This document shows, in pieces, positions 5,201-32,803 of a stretch of 64,000 nucleotides of DNA; position 1 is the first letter of the stretch, and every line of letters starts with the position of its first letter. The position numbers were made by a program, and so were the translations under genes. The DNA comes from Hymenobacter sp. H14-R3 (GTDB taxonomy: Bacteria > Bacteroidota > Bacteroidia > Cytophagales > Hymenobacteraceae). The notes beneath the pieces were generated by a model. The model worked only from the letters and a program-made list of their open reading frames with translations, was not told where the DNA came from and did no database searches. Location: the NCBI RefSeq assembly GCF_030063445.1, contig NZ_JASITD010000003.1:62001-126000 (forward strand). Reading direction: 5' to 3'.

Positions 5201-5827
5201 ATGAAGACGCATTACCAGCGCCGGCTACCGCATGTGCTACCACCGGGCGCTGTCATTTTTTTTACGTTTCGCCTGGCCGGCTCCCTGCCAGTGGCAATGA
5301 TTCAACAACTAGCTGAATCACGAAATATTGAGTTACAAAAAGCTGCAAACGAGCCAGTTGAACATCAATTGGAAATAATTGCAAAAATCAAAAAGCTGCA
5401 ATTTGCCAGGTTTGATACCTTGCTGGGCCAAGCCAACTACGGCCCCACCTGGGTCAGCAATCCAGGCATTGCCCGCTTGGTAACGGAAGAAATACTAGCC
5501 TTGGCTGAGCTGCGCGTTGTGGTGCTTGCCTATTGCCTGATGCCCAACCACGTACACTTGGTAGTACAGCTACCCGACGAAGCTGATTTTTCGGCAAGCC
5601 GGATGATGCAGCGCCTCAAAGGCCGCACAGCGCTGGCAGCCAACAAATTACTACACTGCCAAGGGCAGCAGTTTTGGCAGCATGAAAGCTACGACCATGT
5701 GGTGCGCCATGGCAAGGAGGAAGAGCGCGTGATAGCCTATGTGCTGAACAACCCGGTAAAAGCTGGCTTGGTATCAGATTGGACAGAATGGCCTTATTCT
5801 TATTCGTGCGCCAGTGGAATAATGTAG
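5201..5827 (+). CDS. REP-associated tyrosine transposase (RAYT, Y1/HUH family)
   Basis: The 208-aa protein opens with the RAYT N-terminal signature (RRLPHVLPPGAVIFFTFRLA) and carries the HUH metal-binding motif in PNHVHLVVQ. The probable nucleophilic tyrosine is in HESYDHVVR, followed by the family motif YVLNNPVKAGLV. RAYTs are single-strand HUH enzymes derived from IS200/IS605 transposases and are thought to mobilise REP palindromes. The context fits: REP 1 ends 8 bp upstream, and REP 2 begins at the stop codon itself (TAG of TAGGG). Codon use and GC are lower than in neighbouring genes, which suggests acquisition. The frame appears intact. Confidence 0.93.
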   Translation: MKTHYQRRLPHVLPPGAVIFFTFRLAGSLPVAMIQQLAESRNIELQKAANEPVEHQLEIIAKIKKLQFARFDTLLGQANYGPTWVSNPGIARLVTEEILALAELRVVVLAYCLMPNHVHLVVQLPDEADFSASRMMQRLKGRTALAANKLLHCQGQQFWQHESYDHVVRHGKEEERVIAYVLNNPVKAGLVSDWTEWPYSYSCASGIM

Positions 5828-5912
5828 GGTAAGCTTTAGCTTGCCGCCGCCTGGGCAACAAGCACCTTGTATTGCAACAAGCGGCCCGGACGTCGGCAAG
5901 CTAAAGCTTACC
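5827..5912. repeat. REP palindrome 2 (right flank of the RAYT gene), interrupted by IS481
   Basis: The left arm GGGTAAGCTTTAGCTTGCCG (from 5827) and right arm CGGCAAGCTAAAGCTTACC (5894-5912) surround a ~45-bp centre. The last bases of the right arm (CCTAC) now lie at 6923-6927, beyond the IS481 element. The first G completes the RAYT stop codon. Confidence 0.9.
5907..5912. repeat. 6-bp target-site duplication of IS481, left copy
   Basis: CTTACC at 5907-5912 directly abuts the left inverted repeat, and the same CTTACC is found at 6918-6923 directly after the right inverted repeat. Both copies are read from the REP 2 arm. Confidence 0.85.
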
Positions 5913-6861
5913 TGTATAGTCCCGGAAAGTCATGGGCCGGGTCTCGTATAAAGATACCAGGATTTTGAACGTACTCAGCGCACACGAATTCATATGGGGT
6001 TTTGCCGCGTAGCTTTTTGAGGCGTTTACCGCCGTTGTAGGCCCGTAAAAAGGTCTGCAGGTGGGTGTTAAGTTCGGCCTCATCCCGGTAGTGATAGCGG
6101 CGAATAGTGGCTTCTTTGAGCGTGCGATTCATCCGCTCGACCTGCCCGTTGGTCCAGGGGTGAGCCACTTTGGTGCAGCGGTGTTCGATGCCGTGCGCCG
6201 CGCAGACGGCATCGAACAGGTGGGGTTCGGCCCGCTGGCGGTGAGGCAGTTGAGTGAACTGCACGCCGTTGTCGGTCAGTACTTTAGTAATGATGTAGGG
6301 CACCGCAGCCACGACGCGTTGCCAAAAGTCTGCGGCCCGGACCGCTGTCGCCTCCGGGTGCAGTTCGGCAAAGGCCAGCTTGCTGGTGCGGTCAATAGCG
6401 ACAAAGAGATACAACTTCCCTTCTTCGGTGCGCACTTCAGCAAAATCGACGTGAAAGTAGCCGAGGGGGTAGTGCTTAAACGTCTTTTTAGCTCGGCCTT
6501 CAGGGGGTTCTTCGACGGGTAACTGGCTGATGCCATGGCGCTGAAACAGCCGGTGCAGGGCAGACCGGGACAGGTGGGGGATACTTTCCTGCAAGGCGTA
6601 GAGGCAATCATCGAGCGGGAGCAGGGTCCGTTGGCGGAAGGCCACGGCGGCGGCCTCTTCCAGGGGGCTTAGCACTGTGGAAACCGGGTTTTTAGGGCCC
6701 ATCGGGGCATCTTCCGCGCTGGTGCGCCCGCGCCATTTAGCCACCGTTTTGGGGTCTAGCCCGTAGCGGGCAGCTAGTTTGGCGAGGCTGTCCGAACTGG
6801 CTTGGATGGCGCGGCGCACGGCCGGTGTTGTGCGGGCGCTGCCATGAAGTACTTGGTCCAT
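5908..6861 (-). CDS. IS481-family transposase (rve/DDE integrase fold)
   Basis: The ATG at 6861 (MDQVLHGSART) gives 317 aa. An N-terminal helix-turn-helix (LAKLAARYGLDPKTVAKWRG) is followed by the integrase catalytic core: D in YFHVDFAEV, D in LTDNGVQFT and E in NGQVERMNRTLKE. The C-terminal residues HDFPGLY are encoded by the inverted repeat, and the stop codon TAA (5910-5908) lies outside the element, in the duplicated target sequence. Thus the frame depends on the insertion site for its stop. There is no sign of frameshift. Confidence 0.92.
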   Translation of the reverse strand: MDQVLHGSARTTPAVRRAIQASSDSLAKLAARYGLDPKTVAKWRGRTSAEDAPMGPKNPVSTVLSPLEEAAAVAFRQRTLLPLDDCLYALQESIPHLSRSALHRLFQRHGISQLPVEEPPEGRAKKTFKHYPLGYFHVDFAEVRTEEGKLYLFVAIDRTSKLAFAELHPEATAVRAADFWQRVVAAVPYIITKVLTDNGVQFTQLPHRQRAEPHLFDAVCAAHGIEHRCTKVAHPWTNGQVERMNRTLKEATIRRYHYRDEAELNTHLQTFLRAYNGGKRLKKLRGKTPYEFVCAEYVQNPGIFIRDPAHDFPGLYR

Positions 6862-6917
6862 AAATTTGTACGAAAGGCAGAATCCAAAACTACACCATGA
6901 CTTTCCGGGACCATACA
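5913..6917 (-). mobile_element. IS481-family insertion sequence, 1005 bp, complete
   Basis: The terminal inverted repeats are TGTATAGTCCCGGAAAGTCA (from 5913) and, reading inward from 6917, TGTATGGTCCCGGAAAGTCA; over 22 bp there is one mismatch. They end in TG...CA. A single transposase gene on the minus strand fills the element. The flanking CTTACC duplication and near-identical ends point to a recent insertion into the arm of a REP palindrome. Confidence 0.92.
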
Positions 6918-6933
6918 CTTACCCTACAGCACC

Positions 6934-26250: not shown

Positions 26251-26415
26251 TGCAGCCCCACCCCCCGGCCCCCCTCCCCTGTGGGGGAGGGGGAGCCTAG
26301 GCAGCGTGGGCGTAATTGCAAGTAGAATTGATAGTTAGTCAACAGTAGTCCGAATCAAATCTGAATCGTCTGGCTCCCCCTCCCCGGCAGGGAAAGGGGC
26401 CGGGGGGTGGGGCCG
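26251..26415. mobile_element. 165-bp MITE-like element of the DUF559-associated repeat
   Basis: The left part TGCAGCCCCACCCCCCGGCC... (26251-26297) and right part GGCTCCCCCTCCCC... GGGGGGTGGGGCC (26372-26415) are inverted copies of the 57-bp terminal repeats at 31371-31427 and 31917-31973. The ~74-bp centre is AT-rich and codes for nothing obvious. It fills the purF-purM gap: one end is 4 bp from the purM start, the other 4 bp from the purF stop. Confidence 0.8.
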
Positions 26416-26419
26416 CCAA

Positions 26420-29965: not shown

Positions 29966-31366
29966 TTACAACGCTTTCAACTCAGCATCAGCCGCTTTCA
30001 ACTTGGCTTTCGTGGCCAGAATATCGTGGCGCAGGCGCTCGCGCAGGCGTGGCGTGTTGAGGGCGCGCAACGCCGCCTGGGCCGCGTTGTCGGGGCGCAC
30101 CACCGTGAGGTTGGGCGTGCCGCTGGGCATGATAACCGACGAGTTCAGGTTCATGGCCAGCTCAGCGTAGTCCTTCCAGGGTGGGCACGAGATGACGGGC
30201 ACGTTCACGTTGGCGGCCAGGGCCCCGCCGAGGCCGTTGCTGAGGCCGGCCACGGCGATAATCACGCCGGGCTCAATCGAGCGGTTCCAGACTTCGGCCA
30301 TCGGGCCGATTTCTTCGCCGTTTTTGTGGGCCGAGCACACGCGCAGCTGCGTGAATACTCCGTAGCCCTCGAAAAACGAACGGATTTTCTGGCAGTGCTC
30401 CTTATCGGCGGGCGAGCCCATCACGATATTCACCCAGGCATCTTTCATGATACCAGCCTTTACCAGATTGCTAACCAAGCGGTTGGCGACGTTGCCGCCG
30501 GTGGCGGTTTCGTCGGCCGTGGCCAGGGGCTGGCCCACAATGCGCTGGTAGATGTCGAGGTAGCGGTTGGTAGCTTCCTGGGCTACTTCGGGGGTGAGGG
30601 CGCGGGGGTAGGCCCCGTCTACCTTATTGGCAATCAGCCACTGGCGCACGTATTCCTTGTCCATCTGCTCGGCACCCTCGGGGTTCTGGGCATAGTCGGC
30701 GGCGCTCCAGAAGCGCGACGAATCGGGCGTATGGATTTCGTCAATCAAAATCAGCTCGCCGTTCAGCAGGCCAAACTCGTACTTGGTATCAACCAGGATG
30801 ATGCCCTGCGAGGTCAGCAAGTCGGAGCCTACTTTGAACAGCTCCAGCGCCTTCTCGGCCATCTTGTCGTACAGCTCCTGGCTCACCCAGCCCTCGCTCA
30901 CGAGGTTTGCGGGGGTGATTTCGCGGTCCGATTCCTCCTTGGTGGTCGGCGTCACGATGGGCGCGGGGAACTGCTGGTGCTTGGTAAGGCCATCGGGCAC
31001 GGTCACGCCTGAGAACGTGCGCTGGCCTTTCTGGTAGCCGCGTAGCATCGAGCCGGTGATGTAGTTGCGCACAATCATCTCGACCTTAATGGGTTGCGCT
31101 TCCTTCACCAGCATGGCGTTGGCATCAATCAGCTCCTTCACGTGGTTGGGGATGATGTGCGCCGTTTTCTCAAACCAAAAGTTGGCCAACCCGTTGAGCA
31201 CCGCGCCTTTGTGGGGAATGGCGGTTTCCAAAACGCTATCGAAGGCCGAGAGGCGGTCGGACACTACAATCAGACGGGTTTCGTCGTCGATGCGGTAGCT
31301 GTCGCGGACTTTGCCGCGGTGCAGGAGCTGGAGCTGGGGGGTAGCGAAGTGCGGGAGTGTGTTCAT
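29966..31366 (-). CDS. purC: fused SAICAR synthetase (PurC) and class II-type AIR carboxylase (PurE)
   Basis: 466 aa. Residues 1-300 are SAICAR synthetase: LLHRGKVRDSYRID, SDRLSAFDSVL, IVRNYITGSMLRGYQKG, ILVDTKYEFGL, IDEIHTPDSSRFW. Residues about 305-466 are a PurE domain (VNIVMGSPADKEHCQKIRSF, VCSAHKNGEE, AVAGLSNGLGGALAANVNVPVI, SSVIMPSGTPN). Order and motifs are like animal PAICS, whose PurE uses CO2 directly, which would explain why no purK lies in this run. The terminal repeat of the DUF559 element ends 4 bp before its start codon. Confidence 0.9.
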   Translation of the reverse strand: MNTLPHFATPQLQLLHRGKVRDSYRIDDETRLIVVSDRLSAFDSVLETAIPHKGAVLNGLANFWFEKTAHIIPNHVKELIDANAMLVKEAQPIKVEMIVRNYITGSMLRGYQKGQRTFSGVTVPDGLTKHQQFPAPIVTPTTKEESDREITPANLVSEGWVSQELYDKMAEKALELFKVGSDLLTSQGIILVDTKYEFGLLNGELILIDEIHTPDSSRFWSAADYAQNPEGAEQMDKEYVRQWLIANKVDGAYPRALTPEVAQEATNRYLDIYQRIVGQPLATADETATGGNVANRLVSNLVKAGIMKDAWVNIVMGSPADKEHCQKIRSFFEGYGVFTQLRVCSAHKNGEEIGPMAEVWNRSIEPGVIIAVAGLSNGLGGALAANVNVPVISCPPWKDYAELAMNLNSSVIMPSGTPNLTVVRPDNAAQAALRALNTPRLRERLRHDILATKAKLKAADAELKAL

Positions 31367-31370
31367 ATGT

Positions 31371-31973
31371 GTAGCCCCACCCCCCGGTCCCCTCCCCTGC
31401 GGGGGAGGGGGAGCCTGACGACTCTTTGGGGGGCTTGTGGTGGGGTATTTTTTAGGTTATGGTTGAGATTATTTAGTTGGGTGCAGGTTGGCGCTTATTT
31501 CTTGCAATACCGCAGGTAAACTATTCACTACTTGCTCATTACTGAAGCGGATTACCCGGTAGCCAAGCTCGGCGAGCGCCTGGGTGCGGCCCTGGTCATA
31601 ATCTGCTTGCTCAGGGTCTTGGTGGATACCACCATCCAACTCAATAATAAGCTTATCAGCTAAGCTCACAAAATCAGCGATGTAGCCCCCGATAGCGTGC
31701 TGGCGGCGAATGGCCACCCCGAGCTTTTGCCCGCGCACAGCCTGCCACAGTTCATTGTCAGCCGGCGTTGGCTCTTTGCGCATCTGGCGGCTATACTGCT
31801 TAAGTGCATCCCATTTGCTGCCATCAGCAGTGAAAACATCATCCGCAATAGACGTAACCAAGCCTTCCTCACGCCGCGCACGCCGCTCGTAATGAGGCCG
31901 CCCCTCCTCCACCAAAAAAGAGTCGTCAGGCTCCCCCTCCCCCGCAGGGGAGGGGGCCGGGGGGTGGGGCTGC
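31371..31973 (-). mobile_element. ~600-bp inverted-repeat element carrying a DUF559 nuclease frame, inserted at the 3' end of purQ
   Basis: Near-identical inverted repeats of 57-58 bp bound the unit: GTAGCCCCACCCCCCGGTCC... (31371-31427) and its inverse ending ...GGGGGGTGGGGCTGCA (31917-31973); they share the inner tail GACGACTCTTT. Between them lies the DUF559 coding sequence with lower GC than the pur genes. One repeat is read in frame as LQPHPPAPSPAGEGEPDD and joins PurQ to the nuclease. The same repeats without the gene make the element at 26251-26415. Each repeat contains its own GC-rich hairpin. Confidence 0.75.
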
Positions 31974-32803
31974 AAATGCCGCACAATATTCCTAAAAATC
32001 GCCAGCCCCTCCCCCTCGTCTGTCAACTCCCCACGCCGCTTCCTCACCCCCCAATCGGGATGATTACACCCCGCCAGATACGCCTCCGGGTGCGGCATCA
32101 GCCCAAAAATATGCCCCGTAGGGTCACACAACCCGGCGCAATTAAGGTCCGCGCCATTCGGATTAAGGGGGTAGGTGCCGGTTTCCAAATCATCATGCCC
32201 GGCATAAGTCAGGCAGTTTAACCCCTGAGCCACAATGCGTTCACGAGTAGCCGCGTCGGGCACTACCAGGCGGCCTTCGCCGTGGCGCACGGGCACCTCA
32301 AACGACGTCAGACCTTTCAGGAAGGGCGTTTTAGCCAGCGGGTTCACCGCGAGTCGCACCCAGCGGTCTTCGTAGCGGCCCGATGCGTTGTGCGTCAGCG
32401 TCACTTCGGGCTCGAAGTTGCCGCCCAGGTTGGGCAGCAGGCCCAGCTTCACCAGCACCTGGAAGCCGTTGCAGATGCCCAGCACAAACTTGCCGGCGGC
32501 CACAAACTCGCGGATATCACTGAGCAGCGTGCGGCCCTCGGGGCCGGTCTGGCGGTAGCGCAGCTTGTTGGCCAGCACCACGCCCGAACCCAGGTCGTCG
32601 CCGAACGAAAAGCCGCCCGGAAAATTCAGAATATCAAAGTCGTGGATGCTCACCCGGCCGTGCAGCACCTCGTTGAGGTGCACGATGGTGGGCACGCCGC
32701 CCGCCAGGCGGTAGGCGGCGGCCATTTCCTCTTCGCAATTGATGCCGAAGCCGGTTAAAATCAACGCCTTGGGCGCTGCTTGCTCGTGTTCTGCCATTGC
32801 CAT
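31469..32803 (-). CDS. purQ: FGAM synthase glutaminase subunit PurQ fused to a DUF559 nuclease domain
   Basis: 444 aa. Residues 1-276 are PurQ, a class I glutaminase: ALILTGFGINCEEEM at the start, NFPGGFSFGDDLGSGVV, nucleophile Cys in FVLGICNGFQVL, and GLMPHPEAY. It feeds ammonia to PurL, encoded 31 bp upstream. Residues 277-294 are translated repeat, and 341-444 form a DUF559 domain (RKEPTPADNELWQAVRG, RRQHAIGGYIADF, IIELDGGIHQ, YRVIRFSNEQV) of the Vsr-like PD-(D/E)xK group. Normal PurQ stops near residue 276. The fused tail may be tolerated, or the nuclease may also be made from an internal start such as Met341. Confidence 0.85.
   Translation of the reverse strand: MAMAEHEQAAPKALILTGFGINCEEEMAAAYRLAGGVPTIVHLNEVLHGRVSIHDFDILNFPGGFSFGDDLGSGVVLANKLRYRQTGPEGRTLLSDIREFVAAGKFVLGICNGFQVLVKLGLLPNLGGNFEPEVTLTHNASGRYEDRWVRLAVNPLAKTPFLKGLTSFEVPVRHGEGRLVVPDAATRERIVAQGLNCLTYAGHDDLETGTYPLNPNGADLNCAGLCDPTGHIFGLMPHPEAYLAGCNHPDWGVRKRRGELTDEGEGLAIFRNIVRHLQPHPPAPSPAGEGEPDDSFLVEEGRPHYERRARREEGLVTSIADDVFTADGSKWDALKQYSRQMRKEPTPADNELWQAVRGQKLGVAIRRQHAIGGYIADFVSLADKLIIELDGGIHQDPEQADYDQGRTQALAELGYRVIRFSNEQVVNSLPAVLQEISANLHPTK

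Follow-up and report, generated by a model that had tools for sequence, protein, structure and literature searches.

A DUF559 nuclease gene between its own inverted, potentially triplex-forming palindromes is a recurrent unit across bacterial phyla and suggests an undescribed selfish DNA element

The window, a 64,000-nucleotide stretch of the genome of Hymenobacter sp. H14-R3, contains a purQ gene whose end is joined in frame to a nuclease of the DUF559 family. The nuclease part lies between two inverted repeats, here called arms, and the whole element fills the junction between purQ and purC. The features of the locus are as follows.

31469–32803, minus strand: single open frame of 444 aa encoding PurQ, an arm-encoded linker, and DUF559 (open reading frame and Pfam)
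31978–32803, minus strand: purQ host-gene part, in which the native tail of about 14 aa present in sister species is missing
31917–31977, plus strand: purQ-side terminal arm (inverted-repeat search), with a hairpin at 31933–31942/31947–31956 and a third-strand mirror on its outer side at 31959–31969
31936–31953, no strand: core palindrome of the purQ-side arm (genome pattern matches)
31484–31804, minus strand: DUF559 nuclease domain, PD-(D/E)XK and Vsr/homing-endonuclease-like (PF04480, predicted fold, dN/dS)
31367–31427, minus strand: purC-side terminal arm, the inverted copy, abutting the purC start codon, with a hairpin at 31402–31411/31388–31397 and a third strand at 31375–31385
31391–31408, no strand: core palindrome of the purC-side arm (genome pattern matches with at most two mismatches)
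29966–31366, minus strand: purC, the next gene, whose start codon adjoins the element; this junction is empty in sisters
26253–26419, no strand: short non-coding paired-arm element of the same family, with no gene and one arm decayed (core matches)

The two arms are 61 nt long, 95% complementary, and 489 nt apart, and their identity extends into the inner GACGACTCTTT. Pfam assigned residues 11–275 of the fusion to GATase_5 (E = 1.2e-73) and residues 334–440 to DUF559 (PF04480, E = 1.6e-30, 105.6 bits against a cut-off of 20.6); beside these two domains, the other match, MTES_1575, was sub-threshold, and neither a Y1_Tnp (HUH) nor a DDE transposase domain was found in the fusion frame. Within the fusion, one arm is translated in frame as LQPHPPAPSPAGEGEPDD. 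The GC content is 0.705 in the arm, 0.621 in purQ, and 0.540 in the element interior. These data bear out most of an earlier note on this DNA, which had placed a DUF559 gene between near-identical inverted repeats at the purQ end and fused to it, had described one repeat as the translated joiner of PurQ and nuclease and repeat identity as reaching the inner sequence, and had called the nuclease part lower in GC than purQ. Its repeat length of about 57 bp was slightly short.

Four residues of catalytic type, D52, E63, D65, and H69 (D, E-x-D, H), are invariant in an alignment of 41 sequences and present in the window DUF559, and a comparison of the window fusion with the matching fusion in G046 gave a dN/dS of 0.097; taken together, this indicates that the nuclease is under purifying selection. 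Using the AlphaFold (AF2) model of the domain (pLDDT 87.9), Foldseek returned as nearest fold NGO0050, itself a DUF559 protein (3hrl, E = 1.7e-6), followed by the homing endonuclease I-Bth0305I (3r3p, TM 0.63, E = 1.5e-4) and, more weakly, Vsr (1cw0, TM 0.58). The window protein belongs to DUF559/PF04480 by its profile score above the cut-off, its PD-(D/E)XK-type active-site residues, and its fold, and the match to 3r3p shows that its catalytic domain has the fold of EDxHD-type homing endonucleases. The second DUF559 copy in this genome (L002/L019, C44:113021–113215) is a truncated pseudogene with an internal stop.

Each arm consists of a hairpin, with a pyrimidine stem and a purine stem, plus a mirror third strand, a layout that can be read directly in the window arms. 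The consensus, CCCTCTCCC-loop-GGGAGAGGG-NNN-GGGTGAGGG, is that of the published PIT/TM_ECO potential intrastrand-triplex motif. Among DUF559 arms, including arm families unlike that of E. coli, 186 of 497 hairpin readings had a complete third-strand mirror, whereas shuffled sequences gave a mean of 6.6 and a maximum of 13; with every hairpin read on both strands, a complete third strand can be expected in no more than about half of the readings. Rfam gave no match at gathering level. Potential intrastrand triplex (PIT) elements were reportedly described by Hoyne et al. In E. coli, the motif TM_ECO, CCCTCNCCC-N3-6-GGGNGAGGG-N3-GGGNGAGGG, has 23 copies in K-12, with five inverted pairs, and is present in 262 genomes; the copy number differs by strain (29 in 55989, one in IHE3034), no function was known for TM_ECO, and a link to mobile elements was not found (Holder et al. 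2015, PMC4666352). Triplex formation by the E. coli motif was shown in vitro (PMC4666352), and that of the window arm is a potential read from its sequence. The earlier note was not aware of the arrangement having been described as a mobile element, and our search of one literature library found no paper linking DUF559 or ycjD with triplex repeats; the arms themselves are a known motif, which the note had missed.

DUF559 is found in 51 of the 61 genomes of the genus. Of the 87 DUF559 genes with enough flank, 76 have strong inverted arms on their two sides (at least 40 bits, median 74), compared with 0 of 176 control positions at the same loci and 0 of 30 purQ genes, which is the enrichment between repeat copies that the earlier note had proposed to look for in relatives. 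Remote relatives, collected by a consensus query (80 loci), come from Pseudomonadota, Thermodesulfobacteriota, Chloroflexota, Myxococcota, Acidobacteriota, Elusimicrobiota, Bacteroidota, and others. Arms scoring at least 30 bits flank the nuclease gene at 48 of 72 usable loci in these other bacteria; among control positions the count is 0 of 233. About one-third of the DUF559 genes outside the genus are without clear arms. The arms are 90–100% identical over 40–80 nt, the commonest among the remote loci being CCCTCTCCC-loop-GGGAGAGGG-YTGGGGTGAGGGG, and on a Sphingomonas plasmid sufB and sufC are separated by a DUF559 unit with nearly the same arm as in the window. The more alike two nucleases are, the more alike are their arms (Mantel r = 0.65, at most 0.12 in permutations), also within the A-type nucleases (r = 0.26 vs 0.14). 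At least four B-type arms are present in 15 of 15 genomes with a B-type DUF559 and in 8 of 46 others (p = 7e-9), a genome-level correlation that is confounded by descent. The nuclease and the palindromes at its two ends recur together as a unit across many phyla.

One could regard DUF559 as an ordinary Vsr-like repair or defence gene and the arms as terminators or neutral palindromes at gene ends. Caulobacter VsrA, a DUF559 protein, acts with a solitary methyltransferase (PMC12907096), and E. coli ycjD is stably inherited (PMC12817139). Palindromes of that kind sit poorly with the absence of comparable arms from the control positions of these loci (0 of 409), and with arms that are so nearly identical, carry a third strand, and match the gene lineage at several loci per lineage; we consider this explanation quite improbable.

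DUF559 genes occupy a limited set of housekeeping junctions, namely purQ/purC, metH/metF, the position before recQ, sialidase/glycosidase, gltB/gltD, and others, and several of these are occupied by unrelated nuclease lineages. In-frame fusions are frequent and involve PurQ, RecQ, MetH, and an AddB-like protein. At two loci (L081 and L104, in G009 and G002), the unit lies in frame inside the AddB-like nuclease, which continues on both sides.

At the purQ end, DUF559 is present in about 15 of the 61 genomes and belongs to at least four separate nuclease lineages; the state of this site changes at least 11 times on the PurQ tree. Because at least four nuclease clades are found there, a single origin of the PurQ fusion was rejected. 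The empty purQ 3' end that the earlier note had asked about exists in eight closest relatives (G034, G050, G040, G021, G033, G057, G005, and G020), where a tail of about 14 aa is followed by a stop and purC, with no arms. Between G016 and G030, the flanks of the purQ site are about 93% identical and the nuclease lineages differ. These sequences support an apparent replacement between nuclease lineages at purQ. Within one locus and lineage, most copies have a divergence rate close to that of purQ, and much of the pattern thus reflects long residence rather than recent jumps. Recent cross-species horizontal transfer of DUF559 at purQ is not supported, since within a lineage the nuclease DNA has diverged to a similar degree as that of purQ, and no recent transposition was caught among the genomes compared, which represent one genome per species.

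The fusion might alternatively be a selected bifunctional protein and no by-product of insertion, given that it is carried by about 15 genomes and that its frame stays open under the low dN/dS reported above. Several unrelated DUF559 lineages and several junction points are involved, however, equivalent fusions exist with RecQ, MetH, and AddB, and close sisters have PurQ without DUF559. On this evidence, a bifunctional role is very doubtful.

Arms also occur without a gene. The arm core was found, with at most two mismatches, at 43 places in the 5.26-Mb genome of this strain and the reversed control pattern at none. Most core copies stand head to head, 50–150 bp apart, and there are about 20 short paired elements, the interiors of which are AT-rich and differ from copy to copy. 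A gene-less element of 141 bp has a clean empty site in five relatives (CCATTAGTTCAAATA-type). The gltB/gltD junction holds a 679-bp element in this genome and, among close relatives, a 148-bp element in G034, a DUF559 element in G020, and nothing in G014. The 679-bp paired-arm element (L009, 3628–4307) has no recognisable DUF559 and is possibly a decayed copy; G020 and G057 carry a DUF559 unit at that place.

Reading the outer ends of the elements in this genome, including the window element, and comparing them with empty sites revealed no clear target duplication, so that the duplications the earlier note had suggested looking for did not materialise. The lack of a visible duplication is expected for homing or REPIN-like copying, unlike for a DDE transposon. 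A DDE-type insertion was rejected based on the missing transposase domain, the lack of clear flanking direct repeats, and the clean empty site.

In the view of the earlier note, repeats that are common without DUF559 nearby would speak against mobility by the nuclease. Taken literally, the short paired elements are such repeats, but a REPIN-like non-autonomous population would look alike. Two genomes in which DUF559 is absent even by a dedicated profile search, G024 and G033, have 111 and 82 arms, respectively, which indicates that arms can persist, and perhaps spread, without DUF559. These arms may be relics after loss of DUF559, or else another driver is at work.

Arms in those two genomes, together with the gene-less state of the majority of arms, a homing endonuclease among the nearest solved folds, and nuclease lineages replacing each other at one site, would also fit DUF559 being a homing-type parasite of pre-existing triplex palindromes, which it does not move and which spread otherwise, by replication slippage or an unknown transposase. 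Against this stand the empty purQ and leuC/leuD-like junctions, which are without any arms and show that the nuclease does not simply insert into arm pairs already present at these sites, as well as the fact that arm sequence follows nuclease lineage. We regard this explanation as rather unlikely. For purQ, entry of DUF559 into pre-existing short elements was rejected on the grounds that empty purQ ends carry no arms.

The earlier note had compared the unit to RAYT and its REPs, aptly so. As in the REP/REPIN-RAYT (TnpA_REP) system, a single nuclease gene lies between inverted palindromes that are also dispersed genome-wide as gene-less pairs, and target duplication is not found. Unlike RAYT, which is an HUH (Y1_Tnp) enzyme, the nuclease of the DUF559 unit is of the PD-(D/E)XK type, its repeats are the triplex motif, and the two systems coexist with separate repeats. 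That RAYT mobilises the palindromes as ordinary REPs/REPINs, with DUF559 as a passenger, could be argued from the presence of RAYT-like genes in 43 of 61 genomes, including this one with three weak candidates, and from the resemblance of the short head-to-head pairs to REPINs. Yet the repeats that bracket 16 of 30 RAYT loci are different ones, in no case of the DUF559 type, and many arms occur in genomes without detectable RAYT (72 in G018, 44 in G055, and 32 in G032). The bracketed RAYT loci are a positive control for the bracketing analysis and set the two systems apart. With PF01797 searched in 61 genomes, other repeats at RAYT loci, and arms persisting without RAYT, we rejected RAYT as a general mobiliser, and a driving role for it seems highly implausible. 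Six of the 15 genomes with a B-type DUF559 have no RAYT match at all. The window itself has a RAYT-like gene with a weak Y1_Tnp match (208 aa, 5201–5827, plus strand; L165), whose locus is enclosed by an inverted repeat of another kind (24 nt, GCGGCGGCAAGCTAAAGCTTACCC) and next to which lies a 336-aa frame (5908–6918, minus strand) that resembles an IS transposase with an integrase-type core.

Other known systems share part of these features. The free-standing EDxHD/Vsr-like homing endonucleases of the I-Bth0305I group resemble the unit in catalytic-domain fold, conserved host-gene sites, and lineage replacement, whereas the DUF559 unit has no intron or intein and does have its own terminal palindromes and gene-less relatives. 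The very-short-patch repair endonuclease Vsr has a related fold; DUF559 loci differ in being repeat-bracketed, and no methyltransferase was noted among the neighbours read there. Rickettsia palindromic elements and MITEs are short palindromic units translated in frame as internal or terminal parts of host proteins. DUF559 arms are likewise read in frame in host proteins, but here a nuclease-bearing version exists, and neither a DDE transposase nor a target duplication was seen. PIT/TM_ECO elements have the same motif, with paired inverted copies also in E. coli (PMC4666352); here, the motif is linked to a nuclease gene, and further sequence variants and phyla are added to its range. The unit resembles both REP/RAYT and a free-standing homing endonuclease in the way it works; its enzyme is not that of the former, and it carries repeats that the latter lacks.

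E. coli itself has a DUF559 protein, YcjD (167 bits). The end of ycjD is one copy of the motif and another copy follows, such that arms are present on the 3' side only. The ycjD region was found in about 3,360 of 5,426 genomes; where the site is taken up by an efflux operon, ycjD is missing (also PMC12817139). Further motif places, counted by BLAST in sampled genomes that represent few independent events, number 9–23 in genomes with ycjD and 1–16 in genomes without, the lowest values (1–3) being found in strains such as UTI89. These counts are consistent with a nuclease–repeat link. In a sample of 149 Enterobacterales genomes, with DUF559 counted if full or nearly full, at least two motifs were present in 7 of 16 genomes with DUF559 vs 4 of 133 without (Fisher p = 1e-5), a correlation confounded by descent, and only 6 of 14 Enterobacterales DUF559 genes have arms. 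Genomes picked solely by their DUF559 hold 95, 12, 110, and 7 TM motifs. In Superficieibacter electus (L228, 2361–3317), a tandem array of units of about 179 bp, each with a triplex motif pair, lies directly 3' of the DUF559 gene. The control of the PF04480 family search lists only Caulobacter and Corynebacterium despite the score of K-12 YcjD; if the E. coli control genome is K-12, this search misses some true members.

The explanation that we consider probable is a homing-endonuclease-like selfish gene, DUF559, with its own REP-like, triplex-capable repeats, forming a minimal selfish unit. The unit comprises one small DUF559 gene between two inverted C/G-rich palindromes, each potentially foldable into a hairpin plus third strand, and the short gene-less elements with the same paired arms form a genome-wide population. 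DUF559 would nick or cut at a folded arm or at the junction, and repair of the break might then copy in the unit or, in trans, a pair of arms. Because the arms have no stops, read-through at tight gene junctions can lead to fusions such as PurQ–DUF559. As for the small mobile unit expected by the earlier note, its recurrence, the empty purQ of sisters, and the lineage-matched arms stand, and that the nuclease moves the arms is what we infer. There is about an even chance that DUF559 (YcjD-type) nucleases are more generally the enzymes behind PIT/TM_ECO repeats, that is, that these are widespread selfish REP-like elements with a PD-(D/E)XK homing-type nuclease recognising a DNA triplex or hairpin.

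The pairing of gene and palindromes across phyla suggests a selfish DNA element of a kind not described so far, in which the long-unexplained triplex repeats of bacteria, E. coli among them, may find their explanation. For about 25 years, intrastrand-triplex repeats have been on record from E. coli and hundreds of further bacteria without a known source or function; a link to one nuclease family opens the question to direct tests in E. coli K-12. If true, this reading would give the REP/RAYT style of genome parasite a second enzyme family, unrelated to the first, account for the PHPPAPSPAGEGE-type tails of predicted proteins, and provide a function for a large uncharacterised nuclease family.
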